18,788 nt of DNA. Source: an uncultured Eubacteriales bacterium. Its GTDB lineage: Bacteria > Bacillota > Clostridia > Christensenellales > QALW01. Below the pieces are notes generated by a model. That model saw only the letters and a list, made by a program, of their open reading frames with translations. It made no database searches and was not told the origin of the DNA. Made by a program: the position numbers and the translations under genes. Where the stretch lies: assembly GCA_900552055.1 (NCBI GenBank), contig URYI01000024.1, positions 1-18,788 on the forward strand, in the 5' to 3' direction. Each line of letters opens with the position of its first letter. Positions within the stretch are counted from its first letter, which is position 1. Below are positions 2,222 through 15,540 of this stretch, in pieces.

Positions 2222-2300
2222 GGCGGTTTGAGCTTTTATTTGTTGGGAAAAGTTATATCATGATTATGATTGAGGCGGCGTTGAATTGTATTTCGAGGAA

Positions 2301-3344
2301 ATGAAAAAACGGGTCAGTACCCTGAAAAGGAAAAAAGATGTAATAATGCTTGCTGCGGAGACCTCCTGCGACGAAACCTCCTGCGCCGTGGTAAAAAACG
2401 GGCGGGAGGTATTGTCCAATGTCATCTCTTCGCAGGTGGATATACATAGAAAATATAAAGGGGTTGTGCCTGAAATCGCTTCAAGATGCCATACACAGTG
2501 CATAAGCGCTGTGGCCGCCCAGGCCATGGAGGAAGCGGGACTGGATTTTAAACAGCTGGATGCCGTAGCGGTAACTGCTGGGCCTGGGCTTATAGGGGGA
2601 TTGCTGGTGGGCGTAGCCTATGCTAAAGGTTTGGCGTATGCCTTAAAAAAGCCTTTGATACCCGTGCATCATATAGAAGGTCATATATGCGCCAATTTTA
2701 TTACCCATCCGCAGCTTGAGCCGCCTTTTATGGCTTTGATAGCTTCGGGCGGGCATAGCCATATAGTATATTGTTCTGATTACTGCACCTATGAACTGCT
2801 GGGCCGCACAAGGGATGACGCGGCGGGCGAGGCTTTTGACAAGGCGGCAAGGGTGCTGGGCCTGCCTTATCCGGGCGGCGCGCCTATTGGGGAATTGGCC
2901 CTTAAAGGGAACGACCAGGCTTTTAAATTTCATTCTTCCCTTGCAAAAGAGGATAATTATGATTTCAGCTTCAGCGGGATTAAGACTGCGGTAATAAATA
3001 TTGCCCACGGCTATGAGCAAAGGGGAGAGCCTTTGCCATCGGCTGATATAGCCGCATCATTTCAAAGGTTTATGGTGGATACTCTCTGTGATAAGGCTTT
3101 GCGTGCCGCGCAGGACAGAGGTGCGAAGAAACTGCTCCTGGCCGGCGGAGTGGCGGCAAACAGCCTTTTGCGCAAAACTCTTTTTGAACGTGCGCAGCGG
3201 CGGAGAATAGAAGTATATTTTCCTGATTTGATTTTATGCACTGATAATGCGGCCATGATTGGCGCGGCGGGGTATTTAAGGCTGAAAAGAGGAGAGATTG
3301 CGCCCTTATCCCTTAATGCCCAGGCTAATATGCCGCTGTTTTAA
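2301..3344 (+). CDS. tsaD: tRNA N6-adenosine threonylcarbamoyltransferase TsaD
   Basis: TsaD transfers the threonylcarbamoyl group from threonylcarbamoyl-AMP to A37 of ANN-reading tRNAs, working with TsaB and TsaE in the cytoplasm. The ASKHA fold motifs are all present: the N-terminal AETSCDET, the metal-binding HIEGH, GGHSH, the loop AGEAFDKAARVLGLPYPGG, FSFSGIKTA, LAGGVAANS, and the C-terminal CTDNAAMIGAAGY. Counted from ATG 2346 the metal Asp is residue 300, the same number as in E. coli. Three starts are possible: TTG 2286, ATG 2301 and ATG 2346. I chose 2301 (347 residues, GAGG at 2295-2298 but very close) because 2346 would cut into the first beta strand, and TTG 2286 would add a longer tail. 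tsaB, tsaE and rimI are not in the window. Cloverleaf repeat A begins 31 nt after the stop. Confidence 0.93.
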   Translation: MKKRVSTLKRKKDVIMLAAETSCDETSCAVVKNGREVLSNVISSQVDIHRKYKGVVPEIASRCHTQCISAVAAQAMEEAGLDFKQLDAVAVTAGPGLIGGLLVGVAYAKGLAYALKKPLIPVHHIEGHICANFITHPQLEPPFMALIASGGHSHIVYCSDYCTYELLGRTRDDAAGEAFDKAARVLGLPYPGGAPIGELALKGNDQAFKFHSSLAKEDNYDFSFSGIKTAVINIAHGYEQRGEPLPSADIAASFQRFMVDTLCDKALRAAQDRGAKKLLLAGGVAANSLLRKTLFERAQRRRIEVYFPDLILCTDNAAMIGAAGYLRLKRGEIAPLSLNAQANMPLF

Positions 3345-3375: not shown

Positions 3376-3503
3376 AAGCGCCTCGACCACATAAGGGGGC
3401 GGCGTTTGCGGCCCTTCGGGCCGCCGGGCTGCGCTGAAAGCGCAGCCCGGAGCAGGCGCGTAGCGCCTGCCAAACGCCGCCCTTTTATGCGGCCGGGACG
3501 CTT
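3376..3503. repeat. Cloverleaf palindromic repeat, copy A
   Basis: This 128-nt GC-rich element folds as a four-way junction. The outer stem pairs 3376-3408 with 3471-3503 (33 positions, six mismatched, all of the transition type, about half forming G-U). Inside are three perfect hairpins: 3409-3423 (6 bp, loop TTC), 3424-3450 (12 bp, loop GAA) and 3452-3470 (8 bp, loop GTA). Only A3451 is unpaired at the junction. The inner part of the outer stem, GGCGGCGTTTG, and the end GCCTGCCAAACGCCGCCC recur in copy B. The right arm is followed by TTTT, so it could work as a terminator for tsaD. It fills most of the 355-nt gap before the glycyl radical enzyme gene. I do not recognise the family. Confidence 0.85.
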
Positions 3504-3629
3504 TTAATCCGGCTCCCGCGGAATTCTGCCATTTACGCCTTCTTTATTGTTTACCGCCGGCAGTATTGCAGTTTTATTTTGTCATTCCATGCATCATTAA
3601 AAATACTAGTTAAAAATATAAATTGGGTA

Positions 3630-3658
3630 TTTACTTTCCTTTTTTCACATGCTAAAAT
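3630..3658 (+). promoter_or_regulatory. Predicted promoter of the glycyl radical enzyme operon
   Basis: TTTACT (3630-3635) and TAAAAT (3653-3658) are separated by 17 nt in an AT-rich stretch. A start near 3665 would leave a 35-nt leader that contains the strong site AAGGAGGG (3686-3693), six nt before ATG 3700. No operator such as a clear inverted repeat was seen between the promoter and the gene. Confidence 0.5.
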
Positions 3659-3699
3659 ACTCTCCGAAAAAGACCTTGCCGTTTTAAGGAGGGAAAAGA

Positions 3700-5910
3700 A
3701 TGGAGTTTTATTCAGTTAAGGGCAAGCGGCCCGTAAGGCTAAAGGAGAGCACCCGCGCTTTGGCTGCGCGCGCCCTTTCGGGGGAATTTGGGCAGGAGGC
3801 CTTCCATACTCCATTTGTTGAAATAACAAATCCGGAATATGAAAATATGTCCTCGGAAGAACAGTATATCTGCATGCTGAATACCATAGTAACCAAAGCT
3901 CCCTTGCGTATTGTTCCGGGCGAACCTTTTGTTGGTTCTGCAACATTGGGAGACGCAATTTTTGCACAGGTCCCTGCGCGTTATAATGGCCAAAACGTAT
4001 TCTGCGGGATAAATCATATAACCGTGGGCTTTGATAATGTGCTGTATATTGGCCTTAACGGCCTTCGTGCCCAGATCAGGGGCAGAAGCCAATGCCAGAA
4101 GGATGAAAAGAAGCAAAATTATTATGGCTGCCTTGAAAAATGCATAGACGCAATAGAACTTTGGCATAAGCGTTATCTGGACGAATTATTGAGCTTAATA
4201 GCGCAGCATCCGGGCGAGGGTTATGAAGAAGTTTATGAAAATCTTAAGGACGTGCCTCTTAATCCTCCGAAAAATTTCAGGCAGGCACTGCAGTCCCTGT
4301 GGTTCCTCTTTGCTTTTACCCGGCTTATAGGCATATGGTCGGGCATTGGCCGGATAGATAAAATGCTGGGCGGATTTTTGGAGGACGACCTTGCAAAGGG
4401 CGCCATAAGCATAGAAGAAGCGCGCGAATTGACGGCCCATTTCTGGATAAAAGGCTGTGAATGGTGCAAGGGGGATTTAGTAAAGGGCAGCGGAGACGCC
4501 CAGCATTATCAGAATATCCTGCTGGGCGGCCGGGATATCACGGGCAAAGATATAACCAATACTCTTTCCTATCTGGTATTGGATGTAGTGGAGGAACTGG
4601 GGATAAGCGATTTTCCCATAGCCATACGCGCTCATAAGGATATGCCTGAGAGCTTTCTCAGGCGGGCGGCGGAGGTAGTGCAGTACGGCGCGGGCATTAT
4701 AGCTTTTTATGACGAACAGAGCGTTATAGAGACATTGATGAATTACGGCTATCCTTACAGCGACGCGGTAAATTTTACAAACGACGGCTGCTGGGAGGTT
4801 CTTATTCCCGGCAAGACACGCTTCAGCTATTGCCCGATGGATATGCTTCATTATTTGCAGACAGACGTGCTGGGAGTAAATAAAGCTATAGAACATGACG
4901 GCAGTTTTGTGGGCATGTATATGTCTCTTCAAACAGCTTCCCCTGCTGAAAGCGACGCACCCATACCTGAATATGCAGATTTTGACGAATTGTATGAGGC
5001 TCTGTTAAAGGGAATAGAAAAAGCGGTAGCCTGGGTGCATTCGGATTTGGACAGCAGAGCGTATTACCGAACGGAGGAAGCTCCTGCTACGGCCCTTGTT
5101 ATGTCGCTGTTTGTAGAAGGCTGCATTGAACGGGGCGTGGATTTTTCCAAGGGCGGTTCTTATTACGATGTCCAGGCCATACATATGGGCGGGGTTCAAG
5201 ACTGCGCCAACAGCCTGCTGGCTATTAAAAAGATGGTCTATGAGGAAAAATTACTGACTCTTTCGGAGCTTATAACCCTTCTGCGGAATGATTGGGAGGG
5301 CAGAGAGGATTTAAGACTGTATGCGCTGAACAAACTGCCTCATTTTGGAAATGACAATGCCCAAAGCAATGAAATGACAGTGCGCCTTTTAAATGACTAT
5401 ATAAACATTGTGCGCGCTTATGACCATAGGGCGGACGGCATTAAATGCCCGCCGGGAGTTTCCACTTTCGGCCGGGAGGGTGAATGGAGGTACGCCAGGG
5501 GCGCTACGGCGGACGGCCATAAGCGAGGGGATATACTTTCGCCCAATCTCAGCCCTGCGCCGGGAGCAGATAAGCATGGGGCTACGGCGGCTATACAGGC
5601 GTATTGCTCTCTTCCCTTAAAACAGCTGCCGGGCTCATGTGCGCTGGATATCAAACTGGGGCCGTTCATGGCCCGCGGGGAAGAGAATGTAGACGCTGTC
5701 ATGGGGCTTATAAAGGGCTTTTGTACCCTGGGCGGCTATTTTATGCAGATGGATATAGTGGATGATGCGATTTTGAAGGATGCGCAGCTGCATCCCGAAA
5801 AGCATCCCGAATTGGCTGTTCGTGTATCGGGCTGGTCGGCTCGTTTTGTTACCTTGGACGCACAGTGGCAGGAGATGGTTATAAAACGGGCGTCAGCCGG
5901 CGGGATTTGA
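3700..5910 (+). CDS. Glycyl radical enzyme of the PFL2/dehydratase-lyase type, substrate unknown
   Basis: This 736-residue protein is a glycyl radical enzyme. The radical site is in the C-terminal motif RVSGWSARF, with Gly711 as the radical carrier. The thiyl Cys364 lies in NDGCWE (361-366), followed two residues later by Glu366, the usual general base of the Gly-Cys-x-Glu group. That group includes diol dehydratases, choline lyase, hydroxyproline dehydratase and arylacetate decarboxylases. True pyruvate formate-lyase has two adjacent cysteines instead, so a simple formate-lyase call would be wrong. Two positions are unusual: Trp after Cys364 (mostly Val or Ile in known members) and Trp712 after the radical Gly (mostly Tyr or Phe). 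The protein is shorter than the 780-850 residues common in the family. Start ATG 3700 has AAGGAGGG six nt upstream. Its activase follows after 53 nt. The reaction cannot be told from sequence alone. Confidence 0.9.
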   Translation: MEFYSVKGKRPVRLKESTRALAARALSGEFGQEAFHTPFVEITNPEYENMSSEEQYICMLNTIVTKAPLRIVPGEPFVGSATLGDAIFAQVPARYNGQNVFCGINHITVGFDNVLYIGLNGLRAQIRGRSQCQKDEKKQNYYGCLEKCIDAIELWHKRYLDELLSLIAQHPGEGYEEVYENLKDVPLNPPKNFRQALQSLWFLFAFTRLIGIWSGIGRIDKMLGGFLEDDLAKGAISIEEARELTAHFWIKGCEWCKGDLVKGSGDAQHYQNILLGGRDITGKDITNTLSYLVLDVVEELGISDFPIAIRAHKDMPESFLRRAAEVVQYGAGIIAFYDEQSVIETLMNYGYPYSDAVNFTNDGCWEVLIPGKTRFSYCPMDMLHYLQTDVLGVNKAIEHDGSFVGMYMSLQTASPAESDAPIPEYADFDELYEALLKGIEKAVAWVHSDLDSRAYYRTEEAPATALVMSLFVEGCIERGVDFSKGGSYYDVQAIHMGGVQDCANSLLAIKKMVYEEKLLTLSELITLLRNDWEGREDLRLYALNKLPHFGNDNAQSNEMTVRLLNDYINIVRAYDHRADGIKCPPGVSTFGREGEWRYARGATADGHKRGDILSPNLSPAPGADKHGATAAIQAYCSLPLKQLPGSCALDIKLGPFMARGEENVDAVMGLIKGFCTLGGYFMQMDIVDDAILKDAQLHPEKHPELAVRVSGWSARFVTLDAQWQEMVIKRASAGGI

Positions 5911-5963
5911 TTTTTTAGTCGGAGGAAGTACGGCGGGGGAGCTCTGCCGTATTAAAAAATATA

Positions 5964-6860
5964 ATGAGAGTAAGCAATATACAGCGGTTTTGCGTTCATG
6001 ACGGGCCGGGCATACGCACGACTGTATTTTTTAAGGGCTGCCCTTTAAGGTGCAAGTGGTGCCATAATCCTGAAAGCATGCTGCTTGAGCCGCGCGTATT
6101 CTTTAACAGCAATTATTGTATAATGTGCGGGGCCTGTCAGGCAGTATGTCCTGCCGGGGCGCATATTTTAACTGAACAGGGGCATGAATATGACGGGAAT
6201 AAGTGCGTAAGCTGCGGAAAATGCGCGCAGGTTTGTCCTACCGGTGCGCTCGAGGCGGACAGCCGCGAATATGGCGAGGAGGAGCTGGTTAAGGAACTGC
6301 TGCGGGACAGGGCTTTTTACGGCGAACAGGGCGGCGTTACCCTTTCGGGCGGTGAACCTATGATACAGGGGACGTCTCTGGTTAAACTTATGCGGCTTCT
6401 CAAAAAAGAGGGAATTAATATTTATATTGAGACTTCGGGGTTTGCGCCCAGGGAGAATTTTGAGGCAGTCAGGGAACTGGCGGACGGCTTTCTTTATGAT
6501 GTTAAGGATACGGATAATTCCAGGCATAAGGATAATACCGGACAGTTTTTTGATCTATCCCGTTCCAATTTAAAGCTGGCGGATACCTTTGGGGCAAAGA
6601 TAGTGCTGAGACTCATTATGCTCAGGGGGATTAATATTACGCCGGAGCATGCGCGCGCCGCCGCTGAAATATATAATGGACTGAAAAATGCGGCCGGGCT
6701 TGAGCTGCTGCCCTGCCACGGCATGGGTGTAAGCAAATATAAAAGATTGGGCCTGCCCTATGAAAATGTGGATTCTCTGGCGCCTGAACAGGAGGAACTG
6801 GAGCAATTTAAACAAATGCTTGTTTCATACGGCGTTCCTGCTATTGTAAGAAAATGGTGA
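5964..6860 (+). CDS. Glycyl radical enzyme activating enzyme, radical SAM with two ferredoxin-type clusters
   Basis: The activase uses S-adenosylmethionine and a [4Fe-4S] cluster to abstract hydrogen from Gly711 of the partner enzyme. The radical SAM cluster cysteines are C26, C30 and C33 (CPLRCKWC), preceded by HDGPGIRTTVFFKG. Two extra [4Fe-4S] sites of the CxxCxxCxxxC type are at C52/55/58/62 and C81/84/87/91, as in activases of non-PFL glycyl radical enzymes. The SAM-contact motif SGGEP is at 128-132. At 298 residues the length is normal for this type. ATG 5964 is fixed by the conserved N-terminus NIQRF at residue 5; no other start codon exists between it and the preceding gene. There is no close ribosome binding site: GGAGG (5921-5925) is 38 nt upstream with a hairpin between. 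The gene ends the operon; cloverleaf B starts 55 nt after the stop and a terminator follows at 7125-7155. Confidence 0.95.
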   Translation: MRVSNIQRFCVHDGPGIRTTVFFKGCPLRCKWCHNPESMLLEPRVFFNSNYCIMCGACQAVCPAGAHILTEQGHEYDGNKCVSCGKCAQVCPTGALEADSREYGEEELVKELLRDRAFYGEQGGVTLSGGEPMIQGTSLVKLMRLLKKEGINIYIETSGFAPRENFEAVRELADGFLYDVKDTDNSRHKDNTGQFFDLSRSNLKLADTFGAKIVLRLIMLRGINITPEHARAAAEIYNGLKNAAGLELLPCHGMGVSKYKRLGLPYENVDSLAPEQEELEQFKQMLVSYGVPAIVRKW

Positions 6861-6915
6861 AATTTTTTGTCGGTTAATTACTGGCTCTAGTATGTATGCG
6901 GATATGTGCATTCCA

Positions 6916-7062
6916 GTCAACTAGCGCGCAGAAAAGCAGCAAAGGGGGCGGCGTTTGCGGCGCTGCCGCGCCGCCTGGCCGGGGGGACCCCGGCCAGGGC
7001 AGGCCGCAAGGCCTGCCAAACGCCGCCCCCCTTTTGCTGCTTTCCTGCGCGTTAGTTTTGAC
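6916..7062. repeat. Cloverleaf palindromic repeat, copy B
   Basis: This 147-nt element is a second copy of the family seen at 3376-3503. The outer stem pairs 6916-6957 with 7017-7062: 40 of 42 left-arm bases match, with four bulged bases on the right. Three perfect hairpins fill the inside with no unpaired base between them: 6958-6973 (6 bp, loop TGCC), 6974-6998 (11 bp, loop GGA) and 6999-7016 (7 bp, loop GCAA). The core GGGGGCGGCGTTTGCGGC and GCCTGCCAAACGCCGCCC is shared with copy A and has the same orientation. The distal arms (from CTAGCGCGC) are unrelated to those of copy A, yet pair with each other. It sits 55 nt after the activase stop. Confidence 0.88.
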
Positions 7063-7124: not shown

Positions 7125-7155
7125 AAAGCAGCGTCTAAAAGAACGCTGTTTTTTA
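7125..7155 (+). terminator. Rho-independent terminator after the glycyl radical enzyme operon
   Basis: CAGCGT (7129-7134) pairs with ACGCTG (7143-7148) across an 8-nt loop, and is followed directly by TTTTTT (7149-7154). Three A residues before the stem can extend the pairing into the T run, so it may also act weakly on the opposite strand. It lies between cloverleaf B and the htrA promoter. Confidence 0.8.
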
Positions 7156-7322: not shown

Positions 7323-8612
7323 ATGAATAACGATTTTCTCAGACAGTCAGACAGTGAACAGCAGCCCAACAATGGGTTTACCCAGCAATCGGACGGCGAA
7401 CAGCAGTTTAACAGTTATTTTAATGAGCTTCAATATCAGCAGGCCCCGCATAAAACGCCGAAAAAAGGCGGCGGTAAAAAGGCGCTGGCAGTTTTAAGTA
7501 CGGTGCTTGTTATGGCGGTTTGTACGGTCTGCGGATATTTCGGAGGCGTTTATGCCAACAGCCAAGCTCAGCAGAATAGCGCAGACGATAACTCAAACGG
7601 TTCAGCCGGCAATTCCAATGTAGTTTATATGAGCAGCAATACTTCGCCTGTGAGCGAGGACGAAAGCGATGCTCTTTCGGTAAGCGAAATAGCGGCAATG
7701 GCGGCGGATTCGGTGGTGGAAATAGTAGTTCAGAGCACTTCTGATTCAGGCTATATCGGCCAGACTATCCTCACGGGAGCCGGCAGCGGCGTTATCCTCA
7801 CTCAGAGCGGCTATATAATTACTAACAACCATGTCGTGGAGGATGCAGACAGTATTAAAGTAAGGCTGCGCAACGGCGAGGAGTATGACGCCGAGCTTAT
7901 AGGCGCGGATTCCAAGAGCGACATAGCGGTAATAAAAATAGATGCGGAAAATCTTACCGTTGCGGTGGTAGGAGATTCTTCCCTGCTCCAGGTGGGGGAA
8001 CTGGCCGTTGCTATAGGCAACCCGCTGGGTGAATTGGGCGGCACTGTGACCGATGGCATTATAAGCGCTCTGGACAGGGAAATAACTATAGACGGAGAGA
8101 ATATGACCCTGCTTCAGACAAACGCTGCAATCAACCCCGGCAATTCGGGCGGCGGATTGTTTAACGGCCGCGGAGAACTTATAGGCATAGTCAATGCTAA
8201 AAGCTCAGGTACGGATATAGAAGGCTTGGGATTTGCAATTCCTATTAATGATGCTATGGAGGTATTTAATGACCTTGTGGAATACGGCTATGTGCGCGGC
8301 CGTGTGGACACAGGCATGCAGATGCTGGAAATAAACGATACTCAAACTGCGTACATGTACAGAGTGAGCCAGCTGGGACTTTATGTGTACGAAGTGGAAA
8401 ATGGCTCTTCGGCTCAGAGTGCCGGCCTTCAGTCAGGAGATTATATTCTCAGCGTAGACGGAACGGAGATTTCCTCTCTGGCTGATTTCAACAGCGCTAT
8501 AGATGCGCACAGCGTAGGCGACCAGGTGGAGATAAGCGTACTCAGAGGGAGAACGGTACATGATTTTACCATTACTCTTACCGAGTATATCCCTGATTCC
8601 GCTGTTGTCTGA
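7323..8612 (+). CDS. Membrane-anchored HtrA/DegP-type serine protease with one PDZ domain
   Basis: HtrA proteases degrade or refold damaged proteins at the outer face of the membrane. The 429 residues contain, in order, a polar N-terminal tail (1-50), one membrane helix (about 53-77), a Ser/Asn-rich linker (78-115), a trypsin-like domain and one PDZ domain (about 340-420). The catalytic triad is visible: His170 in ITNNHVVEDAD, Asp200 in SDIAVIKID and Ser275 in NPGNSGGGLF. The cytoplasmic tail carries an imperfect duplication: RQSDSEQQPNNGF (7-19) and QQSDGEQQFNSYF (21-33). Start ATG 7323 has AAAGGAAG about 8 nt upstream. The gene stands alone between the terminator at 7125-7155 and a long gene-free stretch. 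Which of the several Firmicutes HtrA paralogues it matches cannot be decided, so no symbol is given. Confidence 0.95.
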   Translation: MNNDFLRQSDSEQQPNNGFTQQSDGEQQFNSYFNELQYQQAPHKTPKKGGGKKALAVLSTVLVMAVCTVCGYFGGVYANSQAQQNSADDNSNGSAGNSNVVYMSSNTSPVSEDESDALSVSEIAAMAADSVVEIVVQSTSDSGYIGQTILTGAGSGVILTQSGYIITNNHVVEDADSIKVRLRNGEEYDAELIGADSKSDIAVIKIDAENLTVAVVGDSSLLQVGELAVAIGNPLGELGGTVTDGIISALDREITIDGENMTLLQTNAAINPGNSGGGLFNGRGELIGIVNAKSSGTDIEGLGFAIPINDAMEVFNDLVEYGYVRGRVDTGMQMLEINDTQTAYMYRVSQLGLYVYEVENGSSAQSAGLQSGDYILSVDGTEISSLADFNSAIDAHSVGDQVEISVLRGRTVHDFTITLTEYIPDSAVV

Positions 8613-8851: not shown

Positions 8852-8898
8852 TTTTAGACCCATTTGGCTGGTTGTAAACCAGCCAAATGGGTCTAAAA
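8852..8898. repeat. Perfect 22-bp inverted repeat with 3-nt loop
   Basis: Arms 8852-8873 and 8877-8898 are exact reverse complements, with loop GTA. The arm begins TTTTAGACCC and closes with GGGTCTAAAA. Because the T run is at the left foot and the A run at the right foot, this is the reverse of a terminator layout on both strands. No gene overlaps it. Confidence 0.85.
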
Positions 8899-9049: not shown

Positions 9050-9326
9050 TACTCTAAATTGACAAGGGCATATACGGTCAGGACAGGGCTGTTTCCGCGT
9101 TCTGCTGTGTTGCTTTTCCCTCCGTGTACGTCCGGTACACGTCGTTCAAGCGCCTTGCAGGGCAGGGAAGCGGCCGCTTGTCTGGCTCTTCAGCCTCCAG
9201 CAGGTTTGATTCCGGCGTTTCAGGGAAGCGGAATGAGGCGTAATGAACGTACACCCATTGCCGATGACGCAGAAAATGCCGAAATCATACCGCCGGAGGC
9301 GTGTATCCCCTTGTCAATTTAGGGTA
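9050..9326. mobile_element. MITE-like element with 27-nt terminal inverted repeats and TA ends
   Basis: The ends 9050-9076 and 9300-9326 are inverted repeats with 24 of 27 positions identical; the uninterrupted part is CTAAATTGACAAGGG. Both ends are bounded by TA, which fits the TA target duplication of the IS630/Tc1-mariner group. The 277-bp element has no transposase gene. An 87-codon frame spans it (9059-9322) but shows no family features. Inside lies a small hairpin, CGTGTAC (9123-9129) with GTACACG (9135-9141). Assignment to IS630 is inferred from the TA ends only. Confidence 0.6.
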
Positions 9327-11211: not shown

Positions 11212-14200
11212 TTGTTAAAAGCATATCGTGCGGGTATAGACGTTGGTTCTACAACGGTAAAACTGGTGCTGCTGGATGAGGCAAACCGCATAATATACGG
11301 GGAATACCGCCGCCACTGTGCGCACATACAGGAGGCTCTGCTCTCTCTGCTTAGGGAAGCGCGGGCTGCGGTGGGAGAATGTGAGCTTTACGCCGGCGTT
11401 ACCGGCTCCGGTTCAATTAATCTGGGCAAGGCTCTGGGGATAGGCTTTGTTCAGGAAGTTGTGGCCGTGGCTTCCGCGCTTAAATTAACTGCGCCCCAAA
11501 CGGACGTAGCCATAGAGCTGGGTGGAGAGGACGCCAAGATAATATACTTTAAGGACGGCCTGGACGAGCGGATGAACGGCGTATGCGCAGGGGGGACGGG
11601 TTCGTTTATTGACCAGATGGCCGCCCTGCTGCAAACGGACGCCCAGGGGCTTAATTCCTATGCTGAAAACTATAAGGAAATTTATCCCATAGCCGCGCGG
11701 TGCGGCGTTTTTGCTAAATCGGATATCCAGCCCCTTATAAACGAAGGAGCAACCAAGCCCGATTTGGCCGCTTCTATTTTTCAGGCAGTGGTAAATCAGA
11801 CCATTTCGGGTCTGGCCTGCGGCAAGCCCATACGGGGCTGCGTCGCTTTTTTAGGGGGTCCGCTGCATTTCCTGCCCGAGTTGCGCAAAGCTTTTATACG
11901 CACTCTTCGCCTTACGCCTGAAAATGTAGTGCATCCGGACAATTCCCATTTGTTTGCGGCAATGGGCGCTGCGCTGGAGGTTTTGCCGGACGGGGCCGTG
12001 GAGCTGGATAAGCTTATTAATAATCTTGAGCAGGGGGTTAAATTGCGCTTTGAGCTTAAGCGCCTGCCCCCTCTCTTTGAAAACCAGGAGGAATACGATG
12101 CCTTCTGCCGCCGCCATGAGAGGGCAGTGGTGCAGAAGGGGGATTTGGCGTCCTACAGCGGAAACTGCTTTTTAGGCATAGACGCGGGCAGTACTACTAC
12201 CAAGCTCGCGCTGATAGGCGAACAGGGACAGCTGCTTTTCTCCTATTATACCAATAATTCTGAAGGCCCCGTAAAGGCCGCCGTAAATGCAATGGATATG
12301 CTCAGAGAGCAGCTCCCTGAGGGAGCGCGCATTTGCCGCAGCTGTTCCACCGGCTACGGCGAATCCCTGCTCAAAAGCGCGTTCAGCCTAGACGAGGGCG
12401 AGGTAGAGACTATTGCGCACTGTACTGCCGCCGCGTTTTTTGAGCCGGAGGTGGACTGCGTGCTGGATATAGGCGGCCAGGATATGAAATGCATACGCCT
12501 GCATAACGGTTCTGTGGACAATGTGCTTCTGAATGAGGCGTGTTCTTCAGGCTGCGGTTCTTTCTTAGAGAGCTTTGCCAATTCTCTGGGCTATACCGCC
12601 TCGGATTTTGCCCAGAAGGCAGTCTTTGCCAAGCATCCCGTGGATTTGGGAACCCGCTGCACGGTGTTTATGAATTCCAACGTCAAGCAGGCCCAGAAGG
12701 AGGGCGCTTCGGTAAGCGATATTTCGGCCGGACTGGCCTATTCGGTTATAAAGAATGCGCTGTATAAAGTAATAAAGCTGACTGACGCAAAGGATCTGGG
12801 CAAGCATATAGTGGTTCAGGGAGGTACGTTCTATAACCGCGCCGTATTGCGCGCATTTGAAAAAGTTTCGGGCGGCGAAGCGGTGTGCCCGGACATTTCG
12901 GGTATAATGGGCGCTTTCGGCGCCGCGCTTATAGCGCGGGACAGATATAAAGGCCAAAAGAGCACTATGCTGCCCATGGAGGAGATTTCACGCCTTACCT
13001 TTACCACTTCCACACTGCGCTGCGGCAAATGCCCCAATAACTGCATGCTGACTGTCAGCCGCTTTTCAAACGGCAGCCGGCATATTACGGGCAACCGCTG
13101 TGAAAAAGGAGCCGGGGGAATCTCAAAAATAAAAGCGGCTCCCAATATGTTTGAATATAAGAGCAGAAGGATGTTTGACTATCAGCCATTGGAGCCGGCC
13201 AGCGCCCCTAGGGGAGTGCTGGGCATTCCCCGTGTGCTGAATATATATGAAAATTATCCTTTTTGGGCGGTATTCTTTAAACAGCTGGGCTTCAGCCTGC
13301 TGCTCTCGCCCTTTTCCGACCGCAAGCTCTATGAGCTGGGCATGGATTCCATTCCCTCCGAATCAGAATGCTATCCGGCCAAATTGGCGCACGGGCATGT
13401 CCAGTGGCTGGTTAATCAGGGAGTAAAGGCTATTTTCCATCCCTGCGTCTTTTATGAGCATAAGGAGCGCGCTGACGCCCAGAATCATTTTAACTGCCCC
13501 ATAGTCGTGTCCTATCCGGAAAATCTTAAGAATAACGTGGAGGCTATAGCGGACGGAGGAGTTAAATATATACGGCCCTTTATAGCGTTTACAGATTTAA
13601 AGACCGCATCTGAAAGATTAGAGAGGCTCTGCCGGGAGGAATGGGGCATACCTGAAAAGGAAACGCGGCTTGCCGCGGCCATGGCCTGGGATGAGCAGAT
13701 GCGCGCAAAAGAGGATGTGCGCCGGGAAGGGGCGCGCCTGCTGGCACTTATGGAAAAGGAAGGCGGGCGCGGCATTGTGCTGGCCGGCCGGCCGTATCAT
13801 GTAGATCCGGAAATCAATCACGGCATACCTGAATTGATAGCTTCCTATGGCCTGACTGTATTTACCGAAGACAGCCTGCCCGTGGATAATTGCGAAAAAC
13901 GCCAGCTGAGAGTGGTTGACCAATGGGTCTTTCATTCGCGCATGTATTCGGCGGCCCAATTTGTCAGCCGGCGGGACGATTTGGAGCTGATTCAGCTTAA
14001 TTCCTTCGGCTGCGGCCTGGATGCTGTTACAACCGACCAGATGTCTGAAATTATGGAGAACAGCAACAAGCTTTATACCGTGCTTAAGATTGACGAGGTA
14101 AACAATCTGGGCGCTGCCAGGATACGCATCCGCAGCCTTATCGCGGCTATGAACATGCGCCGGGACAAGGGCATAAAGGCGGATTATAAGCCCATGCAGT

Positions 14201-15540
14201 ACCAGCGCGCGCAGTTTACCGATAAAATGCGCGAGGAAAGGTACACTATCCTTGCGCCCCAGATGAGCCCCATACATTTCGACATACTGGAGCCGATATT
14301 TGAAAAGCACGGCTATAATATAAAAATTCTGGATAACGATAACCGCACTGCTATAGATACCGGCCTCAAATACGTCAACAACGATGCCTGCTTCCCTTCC
14401 ATAACAGTTGTAGGCCAGATTATGGAGGCCATTCTTTCGGGCAGGTATGATAATAATAAACTAGCGGTTATTATGACGCAGACGGGAGGCTGCTGCCGGG
14501 CCAGCAATTATGTAGGCTTTATAAGGCGTGCTTTGGATAAGGCCGGGCTTTCGCATATCCCTGTAATTTCCCTTAACGCCACAGGTATGGAAAAAAATCC
14601 GGGCTTTAAATTAAGCGCTCCGCTGCTGCTCGCAACCATGAGAGGCATTGTCTGCGGCGATTTAATTATGAAGTGCCTTTATCGAACCCGTCCGTACGAG
14701 CTTATATCCGGTTCAGCTGAAAAGCTGCACGAAAAATGGCGGGATATAAGCATAAAAACGCTGACAGGCGGAGACAGCGGCTATAATTATAAGGAGCTTT
14801 GCGCAGCGCTGGTAAAGGATTTTGACTCCCTGCCCCTGAATGAAAGCCTTAAGAAGCCGCGCGTGGGTATAGTGGGGGAGATTCTGGTTAAATATATGCC
14901 TCTGGCCAACAATCACCTGGTAGAATTGCTGGAAAAAGAAGGAGCCGAGGCGGTTGTACCCGATTTGATGGATTTTATGAATTACTGCCTGTATAACACG
15001 CTGTATAAGCGGGAATATTTAGGCGCTTCCTGGGCCTCGGCCGCTGCGTCAAAAGCGGGGCTGAAGATAATAGAAACGGTGCGCCGGCCCGCCGTTGAAG
15101 CTTTAAAGAACAGCCGCCGCTTTGAGCCCAGCATGCCCATAGATGAAATAGGGCAGCTGGCCGCGCCTCTTTTGTCTCTGGGCAATCAGTACGGCGAGGG
15201 ATGGTTCCTTGCCGGTGAAATGGTTGAACTGCTGAAAACGGGCGTGCCTAATATAGTCTGCATTCAGCCTTTTGCCTGTCTGCCTAATCATGTTGTGGGT
15301 AAGGGGGTTATAAAGCAGCTTAAAAAGAGTTATCCTCAGGCCAACATCGCTGCTGTGGATTATGATCCGGGTGCGAGCGAGGTTAACCAGCTGAACCGTA
15401 TAAAGCTTATGCTGTCTGCGGCTAAAAGCGCGCTTGAGGAGGATAAAAGCAAGTCAGAGACTGCCGGGGAGGAGCATTTAATTAAAGAAAATGAAATTTC
15501 TGCGGGGCTTGCTCTTGCCGATGAAAAGGCCTGCAGTTAG
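11212..15540 (+). CDS. Giant 2-hydroxyacyl-CoA dehydratase activase-like ASKHA ATPase with fused dehydratase-like domains
   Basis: The 1442 residues hold two BadF/BcrA-type ASKHA ATPase domains (about 5-255 and 318-575) with nucleotide-binding motifs GIDVGSTTVK (8-17) and GIDAGSTTTK (322-331). Cluster cysteines are C125 and C164 in the first domain, and C444/C448 and C483 in the second. A four-Cys motif follows (C604, C607, C611, C630), then a DUF2229-like region (about 665-880) and a C-terminal region resembling the HgdB/HgdC partner subunits. In the known system the dimeric activase uses ATP hydrolysis to push one electron into 2-hydroxyacyl-CoA dehydratase. Very large fused forms are widespread in Clostridia and have no established client. 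No HgdA/HgdB genes are nearby. The start is TTG 11212 with AGGAGG 8 nt upstream. The tail from about 1408 is charged and low in complexity. The ABC gene begins 26 nt after the stop. Confidence 0.92.
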   Translation: MLKAYRAGIDVGSTTVKLVLLDEANRIIYGEYRRHCAHIQEALLSLLREARAAVGECELYAGVTGSGSINLGKALGIGFVQEVVAVASALKLTAPQTDVAIELGGEDAKIIYFKDGLDERMNGVCAGGTGSFIDQMAALLQTDAQGLNSYAENYKEIYPIAARCGVFAKSDIQPLINEGATKPDLAASIFQAVVNQTISGLACGKPIRGCVAFLGGPLHFLPELRKAFIRTLRLTPENVVHPDNSHLFAAMGAALEVLPDGAVELDKLINNLEQGVKLRFELKRLPPLFENQEEYDAFCRRHERAVVQKGDLASYSGNCFLGIDAGSTTTKLALIGEQGQLLFSYYTNNSEGPVKAAVNAMDMLREQLPEGARICRSCSTGYGESLLKSAFSLDEGEVETIAHCTAAAFFEPEVDCVLDIGGQDMKCIRLHNGSVDNVLLNEACSSGCGSFLESFANSLGYTASDFAQKAVFAKHPVDLGTRCTVFMNSNVKQAQKEGASVSDISAGLAYSVIKNALYKVIKLTDAKDLGKHIVVQGGTFYNRAVLRAFEKVSGGEAVCPDISGIMGAFGAALIARDRYKGQKSTMLPMEEISRLTFTTSTLRCGKCPNNCMLTVSRFSNGSRHITGNRCEKGAGGISKIKAAPNMFEYKSRRMFDYQPLEPASAPRGVLGIPRVLNIYENYPFWAVFFKQLGFSLLLSPFSDRKLYELGMDSIPSESECYPAKLAHGHVQWLVNQGVKAIFHPCVFYEHKERADAQNHFNCPIVVSYPENLKNNVEAIADGGVKYIRPFIAFTDLKTASERLERLCREEWGIPEKETRLAAAMAWDEQMRAKEDVRREGARLLALMEKEGGRGIVLAGRPYHVDPEINHGIPELIASYGLTVFTEDSLPVDNCEKRQLRVVDQWVFHSRMYSAAQFVSRRDDLELIQLNSFGCGLDAVTTDQMSEIMENSNKLYTVLKIDEVNNLGAARIRIRSLIAAMNMRRDKGIKADYKPMQYQRAQFTDKMREERYTILAPQMSPIHFDILEPIFEKHGYNIKILDNDNRTAIDTGLKYVNNDACFPSITVVGQIMEAILSGRYDNNKLAVIMTQTGGCCRASNYVGFIRRALDKAGLSHIPVISLNATGMEKNPGFKLSAPLLLATMRGIVCGDLIMKCLYRTRPYELISGSAEKLHEKWRDISIKTLTGGDSGYNYKELCAALVKDFDSLPLNESLKKPRVGIVGEILVKYMPLANNHLVELLEKEGAEAVVPDLMDFMNYCLYNTLYKREYLGASWASAAASKAGLKIIETVRRPAVEALKNSRRFEPSMPIDEIGQLAAPLLSLGNQYGEGWFLAGEMVELLKTGVPNIVCIQPFACLPNHVVGKGVIKQLKKSYPQANIAAVDYDPGASEVNQLNRIKLMLSAAKSALEEDKSKSETAGEEHLIKENEISAGLALADEKACS

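Follow-up and report, generated by a model that had tools for sequence, protein, structure and literature searches.

Two intergenic cloverleaf palindromes in a Clostridia contig and a three-arm DNA repeat of similar shape in another genus

The window analysed here is the whole of an 18,788-nucleotide stretch of DNA from an uncultured Eubacteriales bacterium of the class Clostridia (assembly GCA_900552055.1, contig URYI01000024.1). Two elements of unusual shape, A and B, lie in intergenic gaps of the window, A downstream of tsaD and upstream of a gene for a glycyl radical enzyme, and B between the gene for the corresponding type of activating protein and that for an HtrA/Do-type serine protease (Table 1). 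The flanking genes are co-directional at both gaps, and each element consists of an outer stem around three abutting GC-rich hairpins.

Table 1. Elements A and B, their parts and the neighbouring genes, in positions of the window.
Feature	Position	Strand	Remarks
tsaD	2286..3344	+	gene preceding A; stop 31 nt before A
Element A	3376..3503		
A left outer arm	3376..3408		core GGGGGCGGCGTTTG at inner end; 82% complementary to right arm (over 33 nt)
A hairpin 1	3409..3423		6 bp, loop TTC
A hairpin 2 (middle, longest)	3424..3450		12 bp, loop GAA
A hairpin 3	3452..3470		8 bp, loop GTA; preceded by a single unpaired A at 3451
A right outer arm	3471..3503		from computed fold and inverted repeat
Glycyl radical enzyme, PFL/glycerol dehydratase group	3700..5910	+	below curated cut-offs; between A and B
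Glycyl-radical-enzyme activating protein	5964..6860	+	stop 55 nt before B
Element B	6916..7062		
B left outer arm	6919..6957 (about)		90% complementary over 6919-6948 (30 nt)
B hairpin 1	6958..6973		6 bp (7 in computed fold), loop TGCC
B hairpin 2 (middle, longest)	6974..6998		11 bp (10 in computed fold), loop GGA
B hairpin 3	6999..7016		7 bp (8 in computed fold), loop GCAA
B right outer arm	7017..7057 (about)		carries 2-nt bulge
HtrA/Do-type serine protease	7323..8612	+	gene following B

A and B are real structures that fold on both strands, far beyond chance. Minimum energies range from -102.4 to -122.2 kcal/mol over the two elements and both strands, with z-scores of -8.2 to -12.4; the real energy was reached by none of 200 shuffles in each of the four cases, and fold strength is about equal on either strand. 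A shape finder that requires at least 5 perfect pairs per hairpin and at least 6 in the outer stem, and that allows from 2 to 6 hairpins, returned only A and B within the 18.8-kb window, and 200 dinucleotide shuffles of the window yielded no three-hairpin cloverleaf. When the two gaps were shuffled 2000 times each, the best results were 17 and 15 bp, as against 45 and 38 bp in the real A and B gaps. The two cloverleafs stand where a preliminary description of this DNA had placed them, as does the anatomy given there, with hairpins of 6/12/8 and 6/11/7 bp, loops of 3-4 nt, and a four-way junction with one unpaired base in A and none in B, except that RNAfold renders B as 7/10/8 bp, with one pair slid at each hairpin base. 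The enclosing outer stem is likewise present in both elements; it is imperfect, with mismatches in A and a bulge in B, and the arms of A are unlike those of B outside a common core (GGGGGCGGCGTTTG / CAAACGCCGCCC), while within each element the arms pair. All four triloops, three in A and one in B, belong to the GNA/TNC class, and the other two loops of B are tetraloops.

A T-rich stretch follows the right outer arm in both A and B. A terminator scan limited to loops of 3-8 found none at A or B, and placed a terminator-like hairpin, one on each strand, at 7125-7152, ~70 nt past B, so that the end of a transcript need not be B. Three further features of the window can be recorded. A 277-bp segment at 9050-9326, in a gene-poor stretch, carries 27-nt inverted repeats at its ends (89% complementary) and looks like a MITE, and a perfect 22-bp hairpin with a 3-nt loop lies at 8852-8898. 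The prfB frame (298-1335) starts at profile position 15, as presumably would follow from a candidate programmed frameshift upstream.

Genomes and loci other than the window are designated here by G and L numbers. The exact stem shared by A and B, GGCGGCGTTTG..CAAACGCCGCC, was found at 7 loci in GTDB 220 contigs, with no cloverleaf at any of them, and was absent from IMG/VR, in which a loosened stem gave two loci, both folding otherwise. Among 197 genomes of the family of G555 the loosened stem occurred in 7, and the finder saw no cloverleaf at those loci; distant blastn searches of plasmids with A and of phages with B returned nothing. A short repeat bearing GGCGGCGTTTG/CAAACGCCGCC on an Oscillospiraceae contig (L007:3580-3770) is not a cloverleaf. 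Because scans for the exact stem yielded no cloverleaf, the search was switched to shape.

In loci from other genomes, 666 kb in all, the finder detected five three-hairpin cloverleafs, each of them in G570 or G555 and with a stem sequence that differs from that of A and B. With more stretches added, G570 contributed 9 cloverleafs over 659 kb, and G555 contributed four distinct copies over 271 kb, together with one AT-rich three-hairpin find (L105) that was set aside. No three-hairpin cloverleaf was found in 164 kb of G414 or in 124 kb of G370, and no cloverleaf in 200 kb of E. coli K-12; eleven other relatives (377 kb) gave one weak three-hairpin find (G404), under the score cut. Clusters of strong hairpins comprised 326 singles, 9 open pairs and 8 closed triples in G570, and 195 singles, 8 open pairs, 4 closed triples and 2 closed pairs in G555.

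Covariance models extended these finds. The first model, R1, is 84 nt long and was built from a single copy of G570, which belongs to a different Oscillospirales genus, and it was trained without A and B. In 20 sources chosen as copy-bearing (277 kb), R1 regained 17 of the 20 copies known from the finder, its training copy included, and matched A with 43.2 bits (E 1.4e-5) and B with 27.2 bits (E 0.017); in a wider search of 75 sources (1.04 Mb), B stood at E 0.065 and A was not among the matches listed. The second model, R2, was built from 37 rows, taken from both strands and with A and B included, and one R2 search listed A and not B, though both were in the training set. Over the 31 genomes of the G570 genus, R2 found a match at E<=0.1 in 17 and none in 14. 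Fifteen of the 17 are rich in cloverleafs, with 7 to at least 145 R2 matches each when both strands are counted. A search of 391 genomes of the class gave no R2 match, a result that is uninformative because the filters were strict and no known positive was among the genomes. Furthermore, the shape answers to no named family, as the preliminary description had supposed: Rfam gave no match in the window and only 2 tmRNA and 5 tRNA matches on six cloverleaf-bearing loci, and no description of a three-arm cloverleaf repeat was found in the open-access literature searched.

The anatomy of the genus-wide copies was drawn from stretches of eight genus genomes picked for their R2 matches and totalling 748 kb; base totals given here are slightly high because some loci overlap by a few kb. 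They hold 267 R2 matches on both strands, or by our count about 135 places. A curated set of 153 copies comprises 123 of these places and 30 more chosen copies, A and B among the latter, and leaves out the AT-rich G555 find and 12 places in G791 with an insert in the middle hairpin. In the 748 kb, the strict finder returned 105 cloverleafs, of which 99 have exactly three hairpins and 6 have another number, with 2 to 6 allowed. A three-branch fold was obtained for 151 of the 153 curated copies on the plus strand and for 152 on the minus strand, counts that are partly circular because a three-arm model or finder had served to select the copies; the strict finder recognised 120 of the 153 real copies and none of 3060 shuffled ones. 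The junction has 0 or 1 unpaired bases in 83 of 151 copies, and the middle hairpin is usually the longest, as it is in A and B. In an alignment of copies, 98.0% of cells are paired as compared with 62.6% after shuffling, and 36 of 37 pairs show double changes, values biased upward because the alignment was fitted to the model and both strands of copies were counted.

The outer stem varies more. In the genus it is commonly GGCGAAGCC../..GGCTTCGCC, of about 10-13 bp, and even there it is not universal; A and B are without it and have GGCGGCGTTTG instead, in arms of 33-40 bp with mismatches. Pairing of the distal outer arms exceeded the 95% level for swapped arms (8.0) in 8 of the 153 copies, with a score of 16.0 for B, 12.5-13 for three G792 copies and a borderline 8.0 for A; as a general feature it was rejected, being no better than in swapped arms over the 153-copy set. 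A conserved tail, CAAGGCGCA, was also rejected as the end of the element, since it is present at some copies only.

Several genomes carry the cloverleaf in a modified or larger setting. The 12 insert-bearing cloverleafs of G791 (e.g. L200:3017-3166 and L208:2736-2934) have about 65 nt or more at the tip of the middle hairpin; every one of the 12 folds still closes with the outer stem, and three arms are still present in 11. In G797, a tandem array (L145:176-1210) repeats a 355-bp unit 2.9 times, each unit with a cloverleaf, and the loop of the middle hairpin reads TTC, GAA and TTC in consecutive units. In G792 a cloverleaf lies within a dispersed unit of about 335 nt, and G555 has another, second dispersed repeat, which consists of two hairpins (CCAAAGGGCAGCGCCCTTTGG, TCGCGACCGCAGTCGCGA; e.g. 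L054:7344-7382 and L105:5296-5334).

A and B probably belong to the repeat kind of this genus or are close analogues of it. They have its three arms, its loop class and its order of arm lengths, and they match a model trained without them. Because they share shape and not sequence with the genus, convergence must be weighed, in which A and B would be unrelated to the genus repeat and could have arisen, for example, from an older hairpin whose loop came to hold a GC-rich palindrome. The different stem sequence and the long paired outer arms, clear in B, agree with such an origin, as does the TsaD identity: the TsaD of the window is 55-56% identical to those of G555 and G570, and 47-56% identical in 18 of the 19 genomes with a match. 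The best TsaD score among 291 genomes of the class is in G004, at 58% identity, with the highest identity (60%) in other genomes and a best value of 59% over 30 genomes of the order of G004. Set against convergence are the likeness in the number and length order of the arms, in the junction and in the loop class and the R1 match to A at 43 bits, and we regard it as rather unlikely; its odds overlap those of the other readings, so that the odds do not add to one. The genes themselves give conflicting signals, since the CoA-activase of the window (1442 aa, 11212-15540) has its best score among 295 genomes in G555, at 75% identity as opposed to about 55% for TsaD, and perhaps, as far as such sequence comparisons go, this reflects horizontal transfer.

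Orthologous sites indicate how the copies change. The gap between phoU and the gene for a PhoB-type regulator has kept the element in five genomes, in four of which hairpin 1 reads GACGGTCGC-TTC-GCGACCGTC; in the fifth, the loop is GAA and the stem is unchanged, which amounts to an inversion of the tip. Template switching is described as homogenising the arms of palindromes and inverting their spacers, in the available portions of two accounts (PMC8604942, PMC8794818). Among 422 similar, non-independent pairs of copies, the 1266 loop comparisons comprise 98 exact reverse complements and 548 identical loops, the rest being other changes, and at a site common to G796 and G799 two of the three arms are wholly different. 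The preliminary description had noted compensated changes between A and B and had argued from them for selection on structure. Covariation is indeed present, but the argument is weaker than it was put, because the tip inversion points to a template-switch-like process that would itself keep arms complementary.

The same observations suit an account in which palindromes arise in GC-rich gaps and become perfect through template switching, and the product has neither function nor mobility, since the tip inversion at the phoU-phoB site, the reverse-complement loops and the replaced arms of the G796/G799 orthologs would all follow. Such an account gives no reason to expect three arms in 99 of 105 finds, a middle arm that is usually the longest, or restriction to part of one genus. 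Furthermore, no three-hairpin cloverleaf was found in the GC-richer relatives G370 (124 kb), G453 (60 kb) and G408 (40 kb), though R2 matches near E 1 occurred in G408 and G370. Pure mutation leaves the constant number of arms unexplained, and we think it distinctly unlikely to be the whole story.

Presence and absence also differ between species. The rimI-tsaD gap is filled in G570, G555, G790 and G792 and empty in several other genomes, and by our own count, which covers fetched stretches only, 12 sites show a filled/empty pair between species; these pairs are unpolarised, so that some may be losses. With this qualification, the mobile palindromic element and the protein-binding cruciform have become the better of the guesses first made about A and B.

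Whether the shape is read as DNA or as RNA bears on the remaining alternatives. Loops of the GNA or TNC type make up 331 of 458 (327 of 452 without A and B), and the available portion of one account describes exceptionally stable DNA mini-hairpins formed by GNA loops (PMC4686876). Complementary loops occur in near-equal numbers (TTC 98 and GAA 96, GCA 28 and TGC 27, AAA 12 and TTT 11), with less balance for TCC and GGA (46 and 30) and for CAAG and CTTG (15 and 10). G-U pairs account for 46 of 5693 pairs on the plus strand (0.8%) and 37 of 5683 on the minus strand (0.65%) in the curated copies, a rarity to which the covariance model may itself contribute by disfavouring G-U-rich copies. In the 59 copies that lie between co-directional genes, the sense strand carries 69 GNA and 60 TNC loops, 14 GGA and 8 TCC, and 4 AAA and 8 TTT, and G-U pairs number 11 on the sense and 13 on the antisense strand. 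Several signs thus point to DNA more than to RNA, namely the rare G-U pairs, the near strand symmetry of the loops, the lack of a clear sense bias and the tip inversion, and it is the near symmetry that favours the DNA reading on balance.

Gene context, taken from a simple gene caller of our own, is less one-sided. The 153 copies comprise 59 between co-directional genes, 31 in divergent and 30 in convergent gaps, 20 within called ORFs that were not individually confirmed, and 13 at edges; background gaps of at least 60 nt number 259 co-directional, 80 divergent and 64 convergent. Of the divergent copies, 26 are in G797 and G791, genomes with arrays. The 80 isolated copies divide into 45 in co-directional, 12 in convergent and 7 in divergent gaps, with 11 in ORFs and 5 at edges. 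They are mildly fewer in divergent gaps than expected from the background counts, a shortage that would follow from a 3' role or from the avoidance of promoters. None of the 18 copies of G570 and G555 is in a divergent gap.

These last counts belong to the case for an RNA element, in which the cloverleaf would be transcribed and would stabilise the mRNA of the gene before it, end transcription or adjust the expression of the gene after it. The positions of A and B, 31 and 55 nt past stop codons and between co-directional genes, fit that account, as do several copies in short co-directional gaps such as rimI-tsaD and phoU-phoB-type regulator. Yet neither loops nor G-U pairs, the latter below 1%, show a clear preference for the sense strand, 31 of the 153 copies stand in divergent gaps even if most of these are in array-bearing genomes, and the terminator scan, with loops of 3-8, picked out the hairpins at 7125-7152 on each strand rather than A or B. 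We consider an RNA element unlikely. The guess of a 3' mRNA stabiliser, raised when A and B were first described, is accordingly weakened by the missing strand preference and the divergent copies, while the somewhat lower number of isolated copies in divergent gaps still speaks for it.

The reading we prefer, at a probability of about 0.55, is that A and B are two copies of an intergenic palindromic element that is non-autonomous and conserved in shape, and that template switching is what keeps its arms paired. The conserved property would be a DNA shape, consisting of an outer stem and exactly three abutting hairpins around a nearly gap-free four-way junction, and readable on either strand. 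Such an element may extrude or fold at replication or in single-stranded DNA, whereupon template switching between arms would keep the hairpins perfect and flip their tips, and copies would reach new intergenic sites by a process that needs the three-arm shape. As a first guess, the mover would be a putative enzyme that recognises a four-way junction, whether single-stranded or cruciform. A stronger form of this proposal is possible but tentative: the family may be defined by DNA shape alone, with a junction-reading enzyme or a repair process copying the cloverleaf as such, template switching rewriting arms that are nonetheless kept perfect, and room for inserts at the tip of the middle arm.

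A known type of mover was also considered, in which the cloverleafs would be REP/BIME-type repeats mobilised by an IS200/IS605-type tyrosine transposase (RAYT). High copy number, intergenic position, palindromic form and filled/empty sites are all compatible with this, and matches to the Y1 transposase (Y1_Tnp, PF01797), some of them fragments, occur in 8 of the 31 genomes, 7 of the 8 being cloverleaf-rich. Eight of the 15 rich genomes (G570, G555, G776, G789, G793, G795, G796 and G798), which may be incomplete, gave no Y1 match, and these eight carry 13 to 86 cloverleaf matches; Y1 is therefore unlikely as the general mover. At the stem foot, the tags GTAG and CGTC occur in 3 and 5 of 612 stretches, against a background of 4 and 12 of 600, and thus show no enrichment, and within 10 nt outside A and B neither stands as a stem-foot tag, the right flank of B being TTGACGATTG, whose complement holds CGTC. 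REPs are, moreover, single hairpins in the available portions of their descriptions. Mobilisation of this type appears improbable; the likeness to REPs as GC-rich intergenic palindromes holds, while the tag and the single hairpin do not carry over.

If the preferred reading of a shape-conserved DNA element is right, cloverleaf families would tend to be missed both by repeat finders based on sequence and by RNA finders based on covariation of one strand. Cloverleaf repeats would offer a natural system for how palindromes arise, stay perfect and spread, and they carry a caution, in that template switching at the DNA level can yield covariation that need not reflect selection on RNA. Should a junction-reading enzyme exist, it would represent a new way of moving DNA.

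Among known systems, REP and BIME sequences are close in being short, GC-rich intergenic palindromes that occur in tens to hundreds per genome and are patchy between species, according to the available portions of PMC3733652 and PMC2817692. There they take the form of single hairpins or of mosaics whose sequence is conserved, and the REP super-families described carry a GTAG or CGTC tag, whereas cloverleafs place an outer stem over three hairpins, are nearly free in sequence and are not enriched for either tag. A REP is a single imperfect palindrome of 20-40 bp, and A and B are four-helix junctions. MITEs resemble cloverleafs in being small, non-autonomous and intergenic and in having filled and empty sites; in contrast, cloverleafs have no established conserved terminal inverted repeat, common insertion boundary or target duplication, and their stems vary copy by copy. 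The stem-loop repeats Efa-1 and Pae-1 (PMC2267715) are similarly multi-hairpin, intergenic and foldable on both strands, but as presented in the available portion of that account they have two hairpins and are defined by sequence, with no mention there of a four-way junction. Lastly, the GNA-triloop mini-hairpins of the d(GCGAAGC) type, in the available portion of PMC4686876 a property of short synthetic hairpins and not a repeat family, have their counterpart in the loops of the cloverleaf arms, which are mostly GNA or its complement.
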